From contig CADEDN010000030.1 in assembly GCA_902826095.1 (NCBI GenBank), positions 1 through 41,891 of the forward strand: a stretch of DNA of 41,891 nt, in the 5' to 3' direction. Below are positions 5,509 through 41,796 of the stretch, in pieces. The notes below the pieces were generated by a model. It was not told where the DNA came from. It made no database searches and saw only the letters and a list, made by a program, of their open reading frames with translations. The translations under genes were made by a program, and so were the position numbers. The first letter of the stretch is position 1. Each line of letters begins with the position of its first letter. The stretch comes from an uncultured Alphaproteobacteria bacterium (lineage in GTDB: Bacteria; Pseudomonadota; Alphaproteobacteria; Caulobacterales; Parvularculaceae).

Positions 5509-6344
5509 TCGTCTGGCGCGATGGGGAATTCACGCCGGGCGAAACGGCGATCTCCGCGGCGGATCGCGGCTTTCTGATCGGCGACGCGATCTTTGAAACC
5601 ATGCTGGTCGAAAACGGCGTTCCCGCGTTTCTCGACGAACATCTTCAGCGCCTTGAAATCGCCCGCGCGGTTATGAACCATCAAGCGACGATTGAACCGG
5701 ATATCCTGCGTGCGGCGATCGCCGGGCTCGCCGAGCGCAATGCCGTCGCCGGGCGGGCGGCCTGCCGGCTGACGATATCGCGCGTCGGCGGGTCGCGCGG
5801 GCTTGCGCCCTCGTTGGACGCGAAATCGCAATCGATCGTCACGCTGACGCCGATCGACCCGCCGCCGGCATTGCTCCGCCTCATCATTGCGAAAACGCCG
5901 CGCTGGTCGGCGGCGCCGACGAACGCCTTCAAATGCGCCGGCGGCTATGTCTCCAACATGCTCGCCCGCACCGAGGCGGCGGGCCGCGCTGATGAAGCGG
6001 TCATGCTCAACGAACACGGGCGCGTCGCCTGCGCGAGCGCCGCCAATATTTTTGTCATTTCCGGCGATCTGGTGTCGACGCCGCCCTTGGGCGATGGGCC
6101 GATGCCTGGCGTCATTCGCGGCGTCCTGCTCGCGGAGGCGCGCGCGCTCGGATTCGATGTCAGGGAACAGCCGATCGATCCGGCGGCGCTGCGGTCGGCG
6201 ACGCTGTTGTTGACGAACAGCCTCATCGGCGTCGCGCCGGGCGCGCTTGTCGACGCGCCCGCGCGCGAAGACGATCCGGCGGCGGCGAAGATCATCGCCG
6301 CTTGCCGCCAGCGCCTCGCCGACGCATTGGTTTCGACCAGTTGA
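5505..6344 (+). CDS. pabC: Class IV aminotransferase, probable aminodeoxychorismate lyase
   Basis: A 279-residue PLP enzyme of fold type IV. In this operon it most likely cleaves aminodeoxychorismate to p-aminobenzoate and pyruvate. The N-terminal ADRGFLIGDAIFET is the family signature. The probable Schiff-base lysine is K143 in TNAFKCAGGYVSN. LTNSLIGVAP near the C-terminus is also typical. Where many members have VxE before SxxNIF (the glutamate that contacts the PLP ring nitrogen), this protein reads VACASAANIF. I believe this substitution recurs in alphaproteobacterial homologues, but I cannot check it. D-amino-acid or branched-chain aminotransferases share the fold. GTG 5505 overlaps the pabA stop as GTGA, so the three pab genes form a coupled run. 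Confidence 0.86.
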   Translation: MIVWRDGEFTPGETAISAADRGFLIGDAIFETMLVENGVPAFLDEHLQRLEIARAVMNHQATIEPDILRAAIAGLAERNAVAGRAACRLTISRVGGSRGLAPSLDAKSQSIVTLTPIDPPPALLRLIIAKTPRWSAAPTNAFKCAGGYVSNMLARTEAAGRADEAVMLNEHGRVACASAANIFVISGDLVSTPPLGDGPMPGVIRGVLLAEARALGFDVREQPIDPAALRSATLLLTNSLIGVAPGALVDAPAREDDPAAAKIIAACRQRLADALVSTS

Positions 6345-6357
6345 GCGGAGACCTTCA

Positions 6358-7506
6358 GTGAAATCGTTCGCCCTCGCCTCGGACCAGATCGCCGCGATCG
6401 CTTCGGCGCTTTCCGTGAACGAACTCGCCGCCCGATTCGATCGCCATATCAGCGCGCTGACGGCGTCGGCCTGGTCGGCAGAAACGCCGCTTTTTGAGGG
6501 CGGGGCGGAGTTTTCGCCTGAGGAAGCGGACGCGTGCCGGGCGCGCCTCTTCCGGTTCTTCGGCCATTCGCCGCCGCCGCAAAAAACCGCCGCGACCTTT
6601 GGCGACTGGGCGGACGAGGCGGCGTTGAAAGTCGCCTCGCGGCTGACCGCCTTCACCTTCACGGCGGCCGGCGATGACGCGCAAGAGATCGAGCACCCGG
6701 CGGATTCGCTTTTCGCCGACGCGGCGGCGGCGGCGAATCTTTTGTACGGGCGCCGGCGCATCCTGTCGCTGGTCGCGCCGCACGGGCTGATCGGGTTCGT
6801 CCTGTCGACGCTGACGCCGAACCTGCTCGGATCGCCCGCGATCGACGCGCGCAAATTGGCGCCGGACGAACTGAAGAAGTCTCTGGCGTTCGGCGACGCG
6901 CTCGTCGCAACGCCGAGCCTGTGGCGATACATCATCGCGCAAGGCGTCTTCGCGCCGGATAACGCCATGGCGGTGTCTTTCGGGGAGCCGATGACGACCG
7001 AACTCGCCGCGGAAATCCGCAAGGCGGGCTTTGGCGCGCAACGGGAGATCTACGGTTCGACGGAGCAGGGCCTGATCGGCTGGCGGGATTCGCCGAGCGA
7101 TCCGTTCGCCTTGTTCGAGCAATGGCGGCGCGTCGGCGACGCGGTCGTTCGAACGCGTCCGTCCGGCGAGGCGGTCGCGACGGCGCCGATGGATGTTCTG
7201 GTCTGGGACGGCGACCGGCGATTTCGGCTGGGCGGGCGGCGCGACGGCGCCGTGCAGATCGGCGCGGTGAATGTCTTTCCGCAACGCATCGCGCAAAAAC
7301 TCGCCGAGCATCCTGACATCGCTGAATGCGCGATCACCGTCTCGCGTCATTCGGGCGGCGCCGACAGGCTGGTCGCGACGATAAGACTGAAGAAGTCCGG
7401 CCCGCCGGCTGAATCGGCGGCGCGATCGATCGACACATGGTGCCGTCAAAAGCTTCGCCCTCACGAACGGCCGCGCATCTATAATTTCGCCGACGCCGGC
7501 CCATAA
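6358..7506 (+). CDS. Degenerate acyl-CoA-ligase-like (ANL superfamily) protein, probable pseudoenzyme
   Basis: A 382-residue protein resembling the short 4-coumarate-CoA-ligase-like family of AMP-forming ligases. Matching landmarks are EIYGSTEQGLIGWRD (about 230-244, the A5 adenine-site motif), GRRDGAVQIGAVNVFP (about 293-308, A8) and EHPDIAECAI (C-terminal domain). The phosphate-binding loop, normally TSGSTGxPK, reads FTAAGDDAQE at 101-110, with the glycine/serine/threonine pattern and lysine gone. The chain also stops after RPHERPRIYNFADAGP, before the usual PRxxxGK catalytic lysine, and a terminator follows at once. Two key elements are missing from an intact frame, so this is probably a non-catalytic or repurposed homologue. 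GTG 6358 has GCGGAG about eight bases upstream and follows pabC by 13 bases, so co-transcription with pab is likely. Confidence 0.74.
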   Translation: MKSFALASDQIAAIASALSVNELAARFDRHISALTASAWSAETPLFEGGAEFSPEEADACRARLFRFFGHSPPPQKTAATFGDWADEAALKVASRLTAFTFTAAGDDAQEIEHPADSLFADAAAAANLLYGRRRILSLVAPHGLIGFVLSTLTPNLLGSPAIDARKLAPDELKKSLAFGDALVATPSLWRYIIAQGVFAPDNAMAVSFGEPMTTELAAEIRKAGFGAQREIYGSTEQGLIGWRDSPSDPFALFEQWRRVGDAVVRTRPSGEAVATAPMDVLVWDGDRRFRLGGRRDGAVQIGAVNVFPQRIAQKLAEHPDIAECAITVSRHSGGADRLVATIRLKKSGPPAESAARSIDTWCRQKLRPHERPRIYNFADAGP

Positions 7507-7534
7507 AAAAAGGCCCTCGATCGTGGGCCTTTTT
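7505..7534. terminator. Bidirectional rho-independent terminator
   Basis: The A run at 7505-7511 pairs with the T run at 7530-7534, flanking a GC stem (GGCCC with GGGCC) and an eight-base loop. It starts at the stop codon of the ligase-like gene and lies between two convergent genes, so it can serve both strands. Confidence 0.87.
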
Positions 7535-7555
7535 CCAAATCGTCCGCCGCTATCG

Positions 7556-8017
7556 TTATTCGCTCGGCGCCGAGCCGCCGGACGCCTGCTGATATTTTGT
7601 GGCGACTTGTCCTGAAATGCTGCCGAAGGCGTCCGGGCTGTCGCCGACCGTGATCGTCTGCTCGCAATTGACCATGCAGTTGTAGGTGTATCGCGCCGCG
7701 CCGCGCTGCAGCGTCAGCAAGTCGGAATTCGTCGCGCGCACGCGGACGACGAGATTGTCGATCTCGTTGCCGTCCGAGTCGAACAGGAACATGTTGGTGA
7801 GGCCCGGCGCCTTGCCGAACATCAATACCCGCGATTTGTCGCGCACCGTGATGTCCGCGATGCCCGGATTGCCGATGACGATCTGGTCGACTTCCTGTTT
7901 GAACGTGTAGGGCGTGACCTGATCCATCGTCAGCCAGACCTGTTCCGCCTGCGCCGTCGTCACGAGCGCGGCTGACGCCGCCAATGTCGCAAGCAAAGGT
8001 GTCATGAAGAATCGCAT
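7556..8017 (-). CDS. Secreted protein with a lone pilus-assembly/secretin N-terminal domain
   Basis: A 153-residue protein with a Sec signal peptide (residues 1-24, cut expected after TTAQA). The mature part (VGNPGIADITV-like strand, DSDGNEIDNLVVRV) resembles the small N-terminal domain found in front of CpaC/RcpA secretins (PF13629 type). The same order of elements occurs in cpaC of this window at about residues 60-130. There is no secretin domain. A cysteine pair, NCMVNC, near residue 113 is suited to a periplasmic disulfide. The gene is beside, but opposite to, the Tad locus, so a role as a periplasmic accessory of the pilus machine is an inference. Start at 8017; an ATG four codons later is an alternative. 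Confidence 0.78.
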   Translation of the reverse strand: MRFFMTPLLATLAASAALVTTAQAEQVWLTMDQVTPYTFKQEVDQIVIGNPGIADITVRDKSRVLMFGKAPGLTNMFLFDSDGNEIDNLVVRVRATNSDLLTLQRGAARYTYNCMVNCEQTITVGDSPDAFGSISGQVATKYQQASGGSAPSE

Positions 8018-36499: not shown

Positions 36500-37234
36500 A
36501 TGGGACGGAACGGTTTGCGCCACTTTGCGGCGCTGATTGGATTGGCGGCGCTCGCATCGTGCGGCGGCAAGTCCGACGCCCCGGCTGCGGGCGAGCCGCC
36601 TGCCGCCGCTTCATCGACGCAAGAATCAGGCGCCGATGCGGCCGCCGCGCCGGCGACGACGGCGCCGGCGGGCCCAAGCCTTGGCGAGAATTTCGCCTGG
36701 CCGAAGACGACGCTCTTCGCCAAGATCGCGACCTCGAAAGGCGACATCCTGGTCGAGCTTTACCCGGAACAGGCGCCGCGCACCGTCGGCAATTTCCTCG
36801 AATATGCCGAGGCGGGGTTCTACGACCGGCTGATTTTTCATCGCGTCGTCGCGGGATTCGTCATCCAGGGCGGCGGCTATAATCAATATTACGCCGAACG
36901 GCCGACTGGAAAATCGATCCCCTATGAAGGCGACAACGGCCTCAAGAATTATCGCGGGACGATCGCGATGGCGCGCGGCAGCCACCCGGAAAGCGCAACG
37001 TCGCAATGGTACGTCAATCTGAAGGACAATGAAGGACTCGACCATTTCGTCAACGACCTTGGACCCCGCTACGGATATGCCGTGTTCGGACGGGTGATCG
37101 AGGGCATGGAAGTCGCGGACGCGATCGGCGCGATCGCGACCGGCGCCGGCGGCCCCTTCGACAAGGAAGTCCCGGTCGAAACCGTCACCATCTTGCGCGT
37201 CGACAAGATCGACCAGAGCGCGCCGGCGCCGTAG
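36500..37234 (+). CDS. Cyclophilin-type peptidyl-prolyl isomerase (lipoprotein)
   Basis: A 244-residue predicted lipoprotein, with lipobox LAALASCGG at about residues 15-23. An Ala/Pro/Ser-rich linker of about 35 residues is followed by a bacterial cyclophilin domain (about 70-240). Seen are the active-site arginine/phenylalanine block FHRVVAGFVIQGGGY (about 113-127), TIAMARG (about 153), SATSQWYVNLKDN (about 164-176) and YAVFGRVIEGMEV. It assists proline isomerisation of envelope proteins. GAGGGGA stands about five bases before the ATG. It is the last gene of normal composition before the low-GC segment. Confidence 0.92.
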   Translation: MGRNGLRHFAALIGLAALASCGGKSDAPAAGEPPAAASSTQESGADAAAAPATTAPAGPSLGENFAWPKTTLFAKIATSKGDILVELYPEQAPRTVGNFLEYAEAGFYDRLIFHRVVAGFVIQGGGYNQYYAERPTGKSIPYEGDNGLKNYRGTIAMARGSHPESATSQWYVNLKDNEGLDHFVNDLGPRYGYAVFGRVIEGMEVADAIGAIATGAGGPFDKEVPVETVTILRVDKIDQSAPAP

Positions 37235-37253
37235 GTCCGCATTGGGCAGCAAG

Positions 37254-37265
37254 GCGAGTACTCGC
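37254..37265. promoter_or_regulatory. Perfect 12-bp palindrome upstream of the ammonia-lyase gene
   Basis: GCGAGTACTCGC is fully self-complementary. It lies 58 bases before the lyase ATG, in an AT-rich leader (37280-37311) that plausibly holds the promoter. GGGGAG at 37312-37317 is the ribosome site. It may be an operator, but no regulator gene is adjacent. Confidence 0.35.
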
Positions 37266-37323
37266 ATCTACCTCTAGCCTGTGATAGTAATGTGCAAATT
37301 ATTTACTTTTAGGGGAGCAATGC

Positions 37324-38961
37324 ATGACGAATTCTCTAAGCATTTTGCTCACTCACGATGGCGCTCTGAAGCTGCACGACATTGAAGCGGTCGCGCATGC
37401 GAACGCGAAGGTGGCGTTAGAGCCAAAGACACGAGAGCGATTGAGGACGTCTCGCCACGTTGCGGAACAACATATCAAAGACCATCCAGAAAAACGCGTA
37501 TATGGCGTCAATACGGGTTTTGGCAGCAATTACAAAGATTATGTTAGTGCGGAAAGTCTGAAGCAGCTTCAAAAGAATCTCATTCTCTCGCACTGTGTTG
37601 GAGTCGGTCCGTACGCGCCAGCAGCAGTAGTGCGCGCGACCATATTGTTGCGGGCAGCTTCTCTTTCGCGCGGGCGCAGCGTTGTGCGGCCCGAGGTTGT
37701 TGAGACTTTGATTGCGATGCTGAACGAGAATGTAATTCCAGCTGTTCCTCGTTACGGCAGCGTGTCCGCAAGTGGCGATCTCGCGCCATTGTCGCATATT
37801 GCTGCGGTCGTTATCGGATCCGGGCGCGTGCTCGCAGGCGACGGAGGTGTCGTATCGACCACCAGTAAAGGCACATTCAAACCGATTGAGCTGGAGATGA
37901 AGGAAGGTTTGGCGCTGAACAACGGTTGCCAATATGCAAATGCTTGGGGTGCATTGGCCACAGCTGCAATGATCCGATTGGCCGAAACTTCCGCGCTTTC
38001 AACTGCGCTGCATCTCCAAGCGCTTCGAGGTATGGGGAGGCCGTTTCGGCCGGATCTACATGAATTGCGGCCGCACCCTGGTTCCGTTTTGTTCGCGCGT
38101 TGGGTGTTTGATTTGTTGGATGGTTATTCATTCAGAGATGTTTCGACCGACGTCAAATTTGAACACGACGGGCAAATTCAAGACCCCTACAATTTGCGTT
38201 GCGCCGCGCAAGTGTTAGGGCCATGCCTTGATCTTATCCGCCGCGCCGAGCAAACTATGGAGATAGAGGCTCGCAGCGTCACAGATAATCCAATTGACCT
38301 CAATTCAGATTTGCAAAATTATGACCTAGATAAAATAACTTCAGGCGGCCATTTTCACGGCATGCCACTCGCGATTGATGTATTCGGTTTGCTTCAGGCG
38401 GCTGGCATTATGGCGCGCCTCTCCAATCTTCGTTGCGCACGCATTGTCGACGAAAAGCGCAACAAGGGGCTCGGGCCACAGGTTCGTGGCGATCGTCGCG
38501 AGCCGACAGAATCTGGCCTGATGATAGCCGAATATACGACTGCCGGCTTGTGCAATCATATTTGGGGCCTCACTATGCCTTCGCATCTGATGTCTTTGTC
38601 AACTGATTCCGGCCAAGAAGATCATGTTAGCATGGCCGCAAATGTCGCCATGCGTTCGTATGAGGCAGCTGAACGCTTGGGCCAGATACTCGCAATCGAG
38701 CTCGCGTTTGCCTCGCAAGCCGAGTGCATCCGCGCAGGAAATCTGAGCGAGAAGCCCGTTCAGCGCAGTGATAAGCTCACGGAGGCGCTCAAGGAGATCG
38801 GCGCAGCATTTCCACCTTGGCGATCGGCCTCCGAAGAGGTTGGTTTATCTGCCGATGCTAGCGGTGACCGCGAACTGAGTTTGGACATCGAAAAGCTAGC
38901 CAAAAAGGTGCTCGGCGGCGACATTACGCGAGCTTGCGGCTACAAGTTCGATCGCGATTGA
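37324..38961 (+). CDS. Histidine-ammonia-lyase-type aromatic amino acid lyase
   Basis: A 545-residue lyase of the HAL/PAL/TAL family. It most likely removes ammonia from histidine to give urocanate. The self-processing MIO triad Ala149-Ser150-Gly151 is in SVSASGDLAPLSH. The substrate pocket reads LILSHCVGVG (the Ser-His of histidine lyases, not the HL or FL of tyrosine and phenylalanine lyases). VYGVNTGFG, QDPYNLRCAAQ and SGQEDHVSMA (with the HAL-type glutamate) agree. It is somewhat longer than typical HutH (about 510). No hutU, hutI or hutG is near; instead hisS follows after 70 bases. Composition is low-GC and foreign. HAL specificity is inferred from motifs and should be held loosely. Confidence 0.85.
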   Translation: MTNSLSILLTHDGALKLHDIEAVAHANAKVALEPKTRERLRTSRHVAEQHIKDHPEKRVYGVNTGFGSNYKDYVSAESLKQLQKNLILSHCVGVGPYAPAAVVRATILLRAASLSRGRSVVRPEVVETLIAMLNENVIPAVPRYGSVSASGDLAPLSHIAAVVIGSGRVLAGDGGVVSTTSKGTFKPIELEMKEGLALNNGCQYANAWGALATAAMIRLAETSALSTALHLQALRGMGRPFRPDLHELRPHPGSVLFARWVFDLLDGYSFRDVSTDVKFEHDGQIQDPYNLRCAAQVLGPCLDLIRRAEQTMEIEARSVTDNPIDLNSDLQNYDLDKITSGGHFHGMPLAIDVFGLLQAAGIMARLSNLRCARIVDEKRNKGLGPQVRGDRREPTESGLMIAEYTTAGLCNHIWGLTMPSHLMSLSTDSGQEDHVSMAANVAMRSYEAAERLGQILAIELAFASQAECIRAGNLSEKPVQRSDKLTEALKEIGAAFPPWRSASEEVGLSADASGDRELSLDIEKLAKKVLGGDITRACGYKFDRD

Positions 38962-39031
38962 CGCGTGCTCGTTTCGCACGATTTGCGGTCACGCCGACTC
39001 GCATAGACAACAGCCGTCTGGGATTGACGAA

Positions 39032-40507
39032 ATGAGTATCGAATCAAGGTTGATTACTGCGAAAAAGCCGCGCGGATTTGTCGATCGACGAGGCTCCGAG
39101 GCTGCCGCCGAGGAGGCAATCGTTTCGACGGTTGGGCGTGTCTATGAGAAATGGGGCTTCGAGCGACTTGAAACGTCAGCGATCGAGTTTACAGAGGCAC
39201 TGGGCAAGTTCCTGCCTGATCTTGATCGGCCGAATGAGGGAGTGTTTTCATTCCTGGATGACAATTGCTGGCACTCGTTGCGGTACGATCTTACCGCCCC
39301 GCTCGCAAGGTTCGCCGCCGAGGAACGCATCGCGCTGCCAAAGCCCTATCGCCGCTGGCAAACCGGACCCGTGTGGCGAAATGAGAAACCCGGCCCTGGT
39401 CGATTTCGCCAGTTTACTCAATGCGACGCAGACACGGTGGGGTCTGACAATCCCGCCGCAGACGCCGAAATGGTGGCGATGGCGAGCGAAGCGCTCGAAG
39501 CAGTCGGAGTGCCGAGATCTGGGTATGTTTTCAAGATCAACTCGCGACGCGTTCTCAACGGCGTGATGGAGAGCATAGGGCTTTCGGGCTCCGAGCGCAC
39601 ACGCCTTACTGTGATGCGAGCATTGGACAAGCTGGATCGTGTGGGCGTCGAAGGAGTGGCTTCCCTCTTAGGTCAAGGACGCAAGGATGACTCTGGAGAT
39701 TTTACGGAAGGCGCAAAACTCGATTCTAAAGCCATTCAGCACCTAATAGAATTCATTACGCTTCCCACTAACTCGCGCGCTGGAGTACTGGCCGGGGTGG
39801 AGAGGCTAGCTGGGGGAAATGAAGAAGGGCATGCCGGGCTAAAGGAACTTCAAAGAATAGACGACGTTCTTGGCGCGCTTGGCGTTGATGATTCTCGTGC
39901 GCGGTTTGACCCTTCGATTGTTAGAGGATTGGAGTACTACACCGGTGCGGTTTACGAGGCCGAACTAACGATGACGACCGTAGAAGATAATCGCGCGGTC
40001 GCTTTCGGTGCCGTAGGCGGCGGAGGTCGCTATGATGATCTTATCGCGCGGTTTACCGGCGAGCGAGTGCCCGCGACCGGGTTTTCAATTGGAGTTAGCC
40101 GGCTTGTTGCTGCGCAAGCGTTGCTGGGTCAGCGGGCAATCGATGAATTAGGCCCCGTAATATTGCTTGCGCTGGAAGCAGATCAAATGGCCGTATATTT
40201 CCGCATGGCAATGGAGTTGCGCGCGGCTGGCATCCGCTCGGAAGTATATTTGGGTGCTGGCGGCATGAAGGCGCAGATGAAATACGCCGACAAGCGGGCG
40301 GCGCCTGTCGTCGTCATTGTGGGCGGCGACGAGCGCGCCAGAGGCGAAGTCACGATCAAGGACATGCGTCTCGGCGCGGCGCTCTCGAAAGAAATCGGCG
40401 ACAACGCCGAATGGCGCGAAAGCGGCAAGGCGCAAATTTCGGTCGCACGCGCGGCCCTTGTCGATGAAGTGAAGCGCGCGCTCGCCAGGGCCGAAAAACA
40501 GCGCTAG
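39032..40507 (+). CDS. hisS: Histidyl-tRNA synthetase, alphaproteobacterial type, mosaic gene
   Basis: A 491-residue class II synthetase. Motif 2 is RRWQTGPVWRNEKPGPGRFR with RQFTQCDADTVGS after it (about 107-136). The histidine motif is IVRGLEYYTGAVYEAE (about 296-311), and motif 3 lies in ATGFSIGVSRL (about 350-360). These are the divergent forms seen in alphaproteobacteria, whose HisRS is known to differ in tRNA-His recognition. All catalytic motifs look intact. Codons up to about residue 408 are of the low-GC kind; the last 80 or so, in the anticodon-binding domain, use the local GC-rich style. The gene is thus probably a recombinant between two alphaproteobacterial alleles. It follows the lyase gene and precedes a dipeptidase. 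Confidence 0.92.
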   Translation: MSIESRLITAKKPRGFVDRRGSEAAAEEAIVSTVGRVYEKWGFERLETSAIEFTEALGKFLPDLDRPNEGVFSFLDDNCWHSLRYDLTAPLARFAAEERIALPKPYRRWQTGPVWRNEKPGPGRFRQFTQCDADTVGSDNPAADAEMVAMASEALEAVGVPRSGYVFKINSRRVLNGVMESIGLSGSERTRLTVMRALDKLDRVGVEGVASLLGQGRKDDSGDFTEGAKLDSKAIQHLIEFITLPTNSRAGVLAGVERLAGGNEEGHAGLKELQRIDDVLGALGVDDSRARFDPSIVRGLEYYTGAVYEAELTMTTVEDNRAVAFGAVGGGGRYDDLIARFTGERVPATGFSIGVSRLVAAQALLGQRAIDELGPVILLALEADQMAVYFRMAMELRAAGIRSEVYLGAGGMKAQMKYADKRAAPVVVIVGGDERARGEVTIKDMRLGAALSKEIGDNAEWRESGKAQISVARAALVDEVKRALARAEKQR

Positions 40508-40533: not shown

Positions 40534-41796
40534 ATGAAACTGAAATTGGCCGTCGCGGCGGCGCTGACATCGACATCGTTGAACGCCGCCCCGCTTGAAG
40601 ACGCCGCGCTCGAAGCCAGGGCGCGCGCCGTTCATGACAAGGTGATCGCGCTCGACACCCATGTCGACATTCCGCTCGATTACGCGACGGCCGCCGTCGA
40701 TCCCGGCGGCTTCACCAAGGGCCAGGTCGACCTGCCGAAGATGCGCGCGGGCGGGCTCGACGCGGCGTTCTTCATCGTCTTCACGCCGCAGGGGCCCCTG
40801 ACCGACGAAGGCTACGCGAAAGCGCATGAGATCGCGTCGACGCGGCTTTCGGCGATCCATCGCATGATCGGCGCCTACCCGAAGGAGATCGCGCTCGCTT
40901 CAAGCGCGGCCGACGCGCGCAAGATCGCAAGATCCGGGCGCAAGGCCGCGTTCATCGGCATGGAGAATTCGTTTCCGCTCGGGCCGTCGCCGACGCAAGG
41001 CGACATCGACGCGATGCAGCGCGCGGGCGTCCGCTACGCGGGCGTCGCGCATTTCGGCCACAACCAGTTCGGCGATTCGTCGAATCCCAACATTGAAGGC
41101 GGCGACGCGGAGGAAAAATGGGGCGGGCTGTCGCCCGCGGGGCGCGATCTCATCGCGATGCTGAACCGCGCAGGGATCATGGTCGACGTCTCGCATTCCG
41201 GCCGCAAGACGATGATGCAGACGATCGAGGCGTCAAAAGCGCCGATCATCGCCTCGCATTCCGGCGTCAAGGCGATCGCCGACAGCCCGCGCAATCTCGA
41301 CGACGAGCAATTGCGCGCGCTCGCGAAAAACGGCGGCGTCGCGCAGATCGTCGCGCTCGACGTTTATGTGAAGGCGCTGAGCGACGCGCAAAAAGCGCTG
41401 CAGGAAAAAGTGCGCAAGGACATGGGCCTTCAAACCGCCGCCGCGCGCGCGGCGATGAGCGCTGAAATCGAGGCCGACTACAACAAGCGCCTCGAAGCGA
41501 TGTGGGACATCGCCCCGCGCGCCAGCGTCGCCGATTTCGTCGATCACATCGATCACGCGGTGAAAATCGCCGGGATCGACCATGTCGGCATCGCCTCCGA
41601 TTTCGACGGCGGCGGCGGCGTCGTCGGCTGGACCGACGCCAGCGAGACCTTGAACGTCACCCGCGAACTGGTGAAGCGCGGCTATGCGGAAGAACAGATC
41701 GCCAAACTCTGGAGCGGCAATCTGCTGCGCGTCCTCGCCGAAGTCGAACAGACGGCGAAAGCGCTCGCAAAGGAAGCGGCCGCTGTCGGCGGCTGA
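40534..41796 (+). CDS. Membrane-dipeptidase-like peptidase (family M19)
   Basis: A 420-residue zinc peptidase of the renal dipeptidase family, probably exported (short hydrophobic N-terminus LKLAVAAALTSTSLNA). Metal ligands can be followed in order: IALDTHVDIP (HxD, about 40-49), FIGMENSFPLG (bridging glutamate, about 140-150), VDVSHSG (about 217), IIASHSG (about 238) and the aspartate of IASDFDGGGG (about 355-364). It cleaves dipeptides, possibly including D-residue substrates. Composition is again that of the host genome. ATG 40534 lacks a strong ribosome site; hisS ends 26 bases upstream, so co-transcription is possible. Confidence 0.9.
   Translation: MKLKLAVAAALTSTSLNAAPLEDAALEARARAVHDKVIALDTHVDIPLDYATAAVDPGGFTKGQVDLPKMRAGGLDAAFFIVFTPQGPLTDEGYAKAHEIASTRLSAIHRMIGAYPKEIALASSAADARKIARSGRKAAFIGMENSFPLGPSPTQGDIDAMQRAGVRYAGVAHFGHNQFGDSSNPNIEGGDAEEKWGGLSPAGRDLIAMLNRAGIMVDVSHSGRKTMMQTIEASKAPIIASHSGVKAIADSPRNLDDEQLRALAKNGGVAQIVALDVYVKALSDAQKALQEKVRKDMGLQTAAARAAMSAEIEADYNKRLEAMWDIAPRASVADFVDHIDHAVKIAGIDHVGIASDFDGGGGVVGWTDASETLNVTRELVKRGYAEEQIAKLWSGNLLRVLAEVEQTAKALAKEAAAVGG

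Follow-up and report, generated by a model that had tools for sequence, protein, structure and literature searches.

The window analysed here is the whole of contig CADEDN010000030.1 (41,891 nt, assembly GCA_902826095.1) from an uncultured alphaproteobacterium of the family Parvularculaceae, and the locus in question is its hisS gene, coding for histidyl-tRNA synthetase (HisRS), together with a lyase gene that precedes it. An earlier reading of the letters, which we call the original prediction, took a low-GC stretch running from the cyclophilin gene stop into hisS as imported by homologous replacement. The features of the locus are as follows, where GC3 is the G+C fraction at third codon positions.

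36500-37234 (+): cyclophilin-type peptidyl-prolyl isomerase by its translation, taken as the native left flank; matches the NCBIfam peptidylprolyl isomerase models, but below their cut-offs; GC3 0.776.
37235-37323 (no strand): left junction interval, from the cyclophilin stop to the lyase start, placed by composition.
37324-38961 (+): putatively imported lyase of the 4-methylideneimidazole-5-one (MIO) type, predicted histidine ammonia-lyase of a divergent subfamily (PF00221, E 8.4e-134).
39032-40507 (+): hisS, 491 aa, probably chimeric (TIGR00442, 360.9 bits against a cut-off of 286.75).
39032-40117 (+): putatively imported part of hisS, codons 1-362, with the catalytic core (PF13393 at 15-358); basis donor identity, tree and profile test.
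40118-40282 (+): crossover interval, codons 363-417, from codon usage and amino-acid affinity jointly.
40283-40507 (+): putatively native 3' part of hisS, the remainder of the anticodon-binding domain (PF03129 at 380-446); basis GC3 of 0.783 from codon 410 and profile test.
40534-41796 (+): M19 membrane dipeptidase, taken as the native right flank (PF01244; GC3 0.831).

The interval between the flanks is filled by the lyase and hisS frames, short spacers aside. Repeats around it are limited to short imperfect ones, and no integrase, transposon or repeat-borne insertion was seen among its frames, as the original prediction had said, with the limit that no integrase profile search was made. The 3,024 bases from 37235 to 40258 have a GC content of 0.547, as against a minimum of 0.606 and a mean of 0.648 for 34,211 placements of equal length elsewhere in the contig. 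The 60-base lines at 37261-37320 and 37321-37380 inside the segment hold 24 and 30 G+C, and the counts earlier given for two lines outside it (38 at 36961-37020 and 43 at 40321-40380) were found to be exact. GC3 is 0.546 in the lyase gene, 0.557 in hisS codons 1-409 and 0.783 in codons 410-491, and it ranges from 0.697 to 0.858 in 20 other open reading frames of the contig, picked by hand. The single best GC3 change point within hisS follows codon 409 (nt 40258/40259); when the order of the codons was shuffled 2000 times, an equally strong one came up 8 times. Therefore, the composition returns to the local level where it had been said to, near 40255 or about residue 408. The left edge of the segment lies somewhere from the cyclophilin stop (37234) to the lyase start (37324). 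It may be noted that the step is not common to the relatives, so that a constraint is not indicated: hisS GC3 is 0.75-0.82 in the N-terminal part and 0.78-0.81 in the C-terminal part of six same-genus sequences, and 0.69-0.92 and 0.72-0.77 in seven sequences of the donor clade described below. In one of the latter (L135) the step runs from 0.92 to 0.73, opposite in sign to that of the window, and a step of the window's sign and size was seen in none of the hisS sequences measured.

In all six same-genus loci the gene upstream of hisS is the cyclophilin gene, with the lyase between them in none, which bears out the comparison with lyase-less genomes that the original prediction had put forward. 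An M19 dipeptidase (69-77% identity) lies 3' of hisS in five of the six; for L030, the remaining one, no such gene was found in the 1.5 kb available beyond hisS. No lyase match was present in 18 loci of the family (six of the same genus and twelve of other genera, some ending at contig edges), and a search of 61 other genomes of the family gave no match above 41% identity. The window's own genome, which is 98.67% complete and 0.07% contaminated, has a second lyase match of 35% identity on a separate contig near hutU and hutI, and this is probably its hutH. It has one hisS match; a second, native hisS was searched for elsewhere in the genome and not found. The retained flanks and the single hisS thus point to an allele exchanged in place. 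In two same-genus loci, L094 and L097, the spacer before hisS measures 652 and 1066 nt and carries other short genes (L094 2871-3523, L097 6741-7807; one is methyltransferase-like by eye), so the cyclophilin-hisS spacer tolerates insertions.

On comparing residues 1-408 of the window HisRS with 398 genomes of the order, seven genomes of one genus (our code g295, in family f4) matched at 71-77% identity, the next best reaching at most 62%. In all seven, hereafter the donors for short, a lyase gene lies directly upstream of hisS. This lyase is 64.9-69.2% identical to that of the window (67-70% over the part of it in the loci first compared), and the C-terminal part of the window hisS is 48.7-56.2% identical to theirs. 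All seven are metagenome-assembled; the title is Hyphomonadaceae bacterium for five of them and Alphaproteobacteria bacterium for the other two. The sampled g295 genomes were rejected as the immediate donor because their GC3 is too high, and hence only the donor clade is named; the immediate donor, if its GC3 was near 0.56, would be an unsampled low-GC genome near this clade. A possible shared motif upstream of the lyase reads, by eye, GGTTTACGYTAG in the donors and ATTTACTTTTAG in the window, and is not used as evidence here.

The affinity of the window HisRS changes along the protein. Over residues 10-408 it is 75.0% identical to the donors, 55.5% to the same-genus sequences and 55.0% to the other sequences of the family; over residues 409-488 the corresponding values are 48.7%, 63.1% and 60.5%. 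At residues 10-80 the six same-genus sequences are on average 89.8% identical to one another, and the window is 59.2% identical to them. Separate trees of the two parts were built from 69 sequences (the truncated L153 was omitted from these, from the approximately unbiased (AU) tests, the identity, crossover and profile analyses and the tree of residues 112-362 below). The N-part tree joins the window with the donors at a support of 98 by the Shimodaira-Hasegawa-like approximate likelihood ratio test (SH-aLRT), and a clade of the window with its own family was rejected (p-AU 1.4e-5, 145 log units). In the C-part tree the window falls in a set of 31 sequences (SH-aLRT 93) comprising its own family and other orders, with no g295 sequence. 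The AU tests on this part gave p 0.43 for a clade with its own family, 0.076 for one with the seven donors alone and 0.27 for its own family alone as a clade. A profile test, for which each group was reduced to four sequences, gave residues 10-365 a score of 625.6 with g295 and of 427.7, the lowest, with the own family. At residues 410-488 the own family scored 117.9, other alphaproteobacterial orders 110.7, f4 100.0, f5 97.1, g295 77.3 and f3 72.8. On leaving sequences out one at a time at these residues, the own group won in 17 of 18 cases for the family, 16 of 16 for g295, 7 of 7 for f4, 10 of 10 for f3 and 14 of 18 for the other orders. These comparisons support different nearest relatives for different parts of one hisS. 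The separate trees suggested in the original prediction thus do not place the two parts alike, the N part going with the donors and the C part scoring best with the own family, the C-part tree alone being indecisive. A tree of so short a part cannot decide, and the native origin of the C part is argued from composition, the profile test and synteny. Separately, in five genomes of another genus (G032, G537, G739, G742 and G763; family f5, genus g15) HisRS matched residues 1-408 of the window at about 1e-39 to 1e-43, G692 of that genus matching at 1e-137; g15 may hold two HisRS types within one genus.

The Pfam catalytic domain of HisRS spans residues 15-358 and the anticodon-binding domain residues 380-446. 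Amino-acid affinity alone puts the right crossover at codons 362-369 and codon usage alone at codons 406-424 (best 409, nt 40258); jointly they give codons 363-417 (best 366), which would place the joint between the two domains or within the latter. The sharp joint near residue 408 of the original prediction therefore stands as a step in composition at codon 409, but the crossover itself is resolved only to codons 363-417. Residues 366-409, which have the imported codon usage, scored 55.6 with f5, 53.9 with the own family and 52.6 with f4, and since imported codon usage goes here with no clear affinity, the incoming allele may be a mosaic itself. On the left side, comparison by eye of native spacers with donor upstream DNA gave no clear homology; the right crossover lies inside hisS.

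A foreign catalytic core has to meet the resident tRNA-His. In the RRCH alphaproteobacteria tRNA-His is of a derived kind, and the motif 2 loop of HisRS has Gly instead of Gln (PMC3937112). This Gly is present in the window HisRS (EKPGPGRF, vs ERAQAGRY in L092, by eye). The RRCH-type tRNA-His lacks G-1 and carries A73. By an Rfam tRNA search, the tRNA-His of the window genome has C at position -1 and A73, without G-1, and the -1 base is T, again with A73, in a donor genome (G499) and in G519, a g295 genome lacking the lyase; all three are of the same type. Because the HisRS and tRNA-His types agree, the foreign core should be able to charge the resident tRNA-His.

Taken together, our reading, with a probability of roughly 0.88, is that a segment of about 3 kb including the hisS core was replaced by homologous recombination with DNA from near the g295 clade, adding the lyase. 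Incoming DNA with the lyase directly upstream of hisS, from a bacterium near that clade, would have paired with the resident copy of that gene. Of the two crossovers, the right one would have fallen within codons 363-417, where the anticodon-binding domain begins or within it, and the left one in the spacer 3' of the cyclophilin gene, so bringing in the lyase; the product would be a single open frame with a foreign catalytic core and a native end. We infer that recombination was of the RecA type, that transfer was into this genome and that the chimera works. The homologous replacement of hisS put forward in the original prediction, with a foreign core and a native end, thus gains support from the N-part placement, the lyase-less synteny and the single hisS. 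Several points weigh against this reading. The C-part tree, of 76 columns, does not reject a clade with g295 (p-AU 0.44), and left free it forms no single clade of the own family, alone or with the window. At residues 410-488 the other orders come close to the own family in profile score, and those orders recognised themselves in 14 of 18 cases. Residues 366-409 combine imported codon usage with unclear amino-acid affinity. The low GC3 of the segment is matched by no sampled donor, the step in L135 being opposite, and both joints are known from the assembly alone.

The first two of these points would also be expected if hisS had been acquired entire, along with the lyase, from a lineage outside our sample having an ancestral alphaproteobacterial-type C part, with only the composition changing at codon 409. 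A further locus, L155, in which a lyase-linked core lies near the donors and the C part falls outside g295, is of the kind such a lineage would give. But inside a single frame GC3 climbs from 0.557 to 0.783, the level of the flanks, a step that no measured sequence matches, and the best fit of the C part is to the own family, and we consider transfer of the whole gene unlikely. Misassembly or a binning chimera could have attached a foreign fragment to the contig, and several of the relatives used are indeed metagenome assemblies; yet this would take two joins within 3 kb, one of them in frame inside a gene, with the flanks in their usual order and one hisS in a nearly complete and clean genome, which makes it very improbable. 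Local constraint or relaxed codon selection lowering GC with no transfer has no observation in its favour; it was rejected and can hardly be entertained, as the step is absent from the relatives and opposite in L135, the lyase is absent at that place in the relatives and the protein is displaced in the N-part tree.

Replacement of the hisS core being our preferred reading, the identity of the gene that came with it may be considered. The lyase is an MIO-type aromatic amino acid lyase, with the Ala-Ser-Gly motif (A149-S150-G151) invariant in three aligned sequences. It falls below the NCBIfam hutH cut-offs (398.2 bits vs 539.15 for TIGR01225 and 417.6 vs 524 for NF006871). The active-site residues of the Pseudomonas putida histidine ammonia-lyase (Tyr53, His83, Asn195, Gln277, Tyr280, Arg283, Phe329 and Glu414) are identical in the window lyase when aligned by eye with 1gkm. 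Six neighbour genes were scanned at the loci of five relatives (L158 Oligoflexia, L161 SAR324, L164 Desulfovibrio, L166 Pseudodesulfovibrio and L171 delta); five pass their cut-offs (HutU twice, HutI, FtcD and HutC) and a HutG-like one is below, other neighbourhoods such as the KSB1 locus L163 being judged by eye only. As these relatives sit among genes of the hut pathway, histidine is supported as the substrate, and judged from sequence the window gene probably codes for a divergent histidine ammonia-lyase.

The pairing of this lyase with the 5' end of hisS recurs. Among 16 g295 loci the lyase is found in 10 and not in 6. Identity of the donors to the lyase-less g295 sequences rises from 62% over the N part to 77% over the C part, the step lying near residue 400. 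The donor-like HisRS stretch ends at about residue 85 in G580 (L138), G630 (L137) and L152 and at about 110 in G523 (L136); in L136 and L152, moreover, residues near 160-290 resemble neither group. HisRS of L152 and L138 are nearly identical save at about 161-290 (55 and 36% in two bins), which in L152 looks like a further exchanged segment. A tree built on residues 1-84 groups all of the 14 lyase-bearing loci included in it, with SH-aLRT 99 for a 15-member set that includes the lyase-less L139, and a single clade of the 14 was not rejected (p 0.52); this tree is short with long branches and does not give the number of events. In the tree of residues 112-362, L136, L137, L138 and L152 are placed with lyase-less sequences, and one clade of the 13 lyase-bearing sequences included was rejected (p-AU 0.012). 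Both trees were built without L156, L157, L159 and the Heimdallarchaeota loci. Since the lyase-bearing loci group at residues 1-84 and four leave the group further along, the simplest reading of these alignments is that hisS serves as a homology arm for entry of the lyase into genomes, with right crossovers at varied points; the lyase and the hisS 5' end would thus have entered other genomes too. Over the first 110 residues the lyase-less g295 sequences are closer than the donors to other f4 sequences, which suggests that the lyase was gained rather than lost within g295. The earlier claim that replacement of hisS brought the lyase along thus holds as to replacement, but the recurrence points to hisS having followed the lyase no less than the reverse. 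Two loci may be noted beside these: L139 (6706-8389), a g295 locus where no lyase was found, has a hisS 5' end of the lyase-linked type and has perhaps lost the lyase, and in L137 (5872-7646) the lyase is split over two frames, either an assembly error or a broken gene.

Among 32 loci of lyase relatives, retrieved with a query alignment that contained hisS-linked members and so favours more of them, the lyase is upstream of hisS on the same strand in 13, convergent with a bacterial-type hisS in 2, and without hisS in the flank examined in 15, some of these on short contigs. The remaining two, L173 and L174 from Heimdallarchaeota, each carry two lyase genes, with a HisRS-like gene no more than a few kb away. 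For L173, HisZ in place of HisRS was rejected, as its gene passes the hisS cut-off (306.1 vs 286.75) and not that of hisZ. A histidine ammonia-lyase of this locus (5992-7710) carries a rubredoxin-like insert at residues 277-324, in the middle of the enzyme. The convergent cases, L157 (5992-9207, almost gapless) and L159 (6001-10540), titled Rhodovibrionaceae and Rhodospirillaceae, represent one lineage with hisS 90% identical. L156 (5992-10618), from an alphaproteobacterial genome assembled from a metagenome, has three genes in a row: the lyase, hisS and one that is HisRS-like and that we presume to be HisZ. In the lyase tree the hisS-linked L156 falls in the hut half and L160, with no hisS within 6 kb, in the other half; by these labels, some of them assigned by eye, there were two or more gains or losses of the linkage. 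A tentative and rather doubtful extension is that the lyase and HisRS work together, perhaps as a histidine valve coupled to how much charged tRNA-His is available, the pair being assembled repeatedly and spreading among alphaproteobacteria through hisS as a landing pad, leaving graded hybrid synthetases. The repeated assemblies would be those in g295, upstream of hisS, in L156, upstream of another hisS type, in the two Rhodospirillales-like genomes, convergent with a bacterial-type hisS, and perhaps in Heimdallarchaeota. A joint function of the pair is offered here as a hypothesis.

Synthetase genes serve as markers of descent and are often taken as whole units of transfer. The hybrids in this genome, and apparently in several others, show an accessory gene travelling with the 5' end of an essential gene, in a case where donor clade, both joints and passenger are known. 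They also raise the question of why a histidine-degrading enzyme should repeatedly adjoin the enzyme that charges tRNA with histidine. The excerpts consulted from the literature on a link of hisS with histidine ammonia-lyase and on mosaic synthetase genes hold nothing describing this case.

Homologous replacement is a known kind of mechanism. The novelty of this case lies in its donor clade, in an essential gene acting repeatedly as homology arm and in the way histidine ammonia-lyase recurs beside HisRS. As in the mosaic genes penA of Neisseria and those of Campylobacter introgression, foreign and native stretches share one frame, no integrase is seen and crossover would lie, on the right side at least, in homologous sequence. 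Unlike in these (PMC10926701 and PMC3139442, used in excerpt), the gene here is an essential aminoacyl-tRNA synthetase, an accessory neighbour was co-imported and the donor belongs to another family. The case also resembles fragmentary lateral transfer within genes, where transfer units ignore gene ends, and differs in that here the donor clade, both joints and a co-transferred gene are identified (compared with an excerpt of PMC2639706). The lyase resembles HutH of the Pseudomonas putida type in the Pfam family Lyase_aromatic, the MIO motif Ala-Ser-Gly and the aligned active-site residues, but belongs to a divergent subfamily below the NCBIfam cut-offs and lies outside a hut operon, beside hisS, a separate hut locus being present in the genome. 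Movement of HisRS between lineages has a precedent in its transfer into the RRCH ancestor, where tRNA-His was altered (Ardell and Andersson 2006, cited through PMC3937112). The two cases share the same alphaproteobacterial type of HisRS and tRNA-His; the RRCH transfer was, by that account, ancient and changed the tRNA rules, whereas the one described here lies within the clade, is partial and leaves the tRNA type unchanged.

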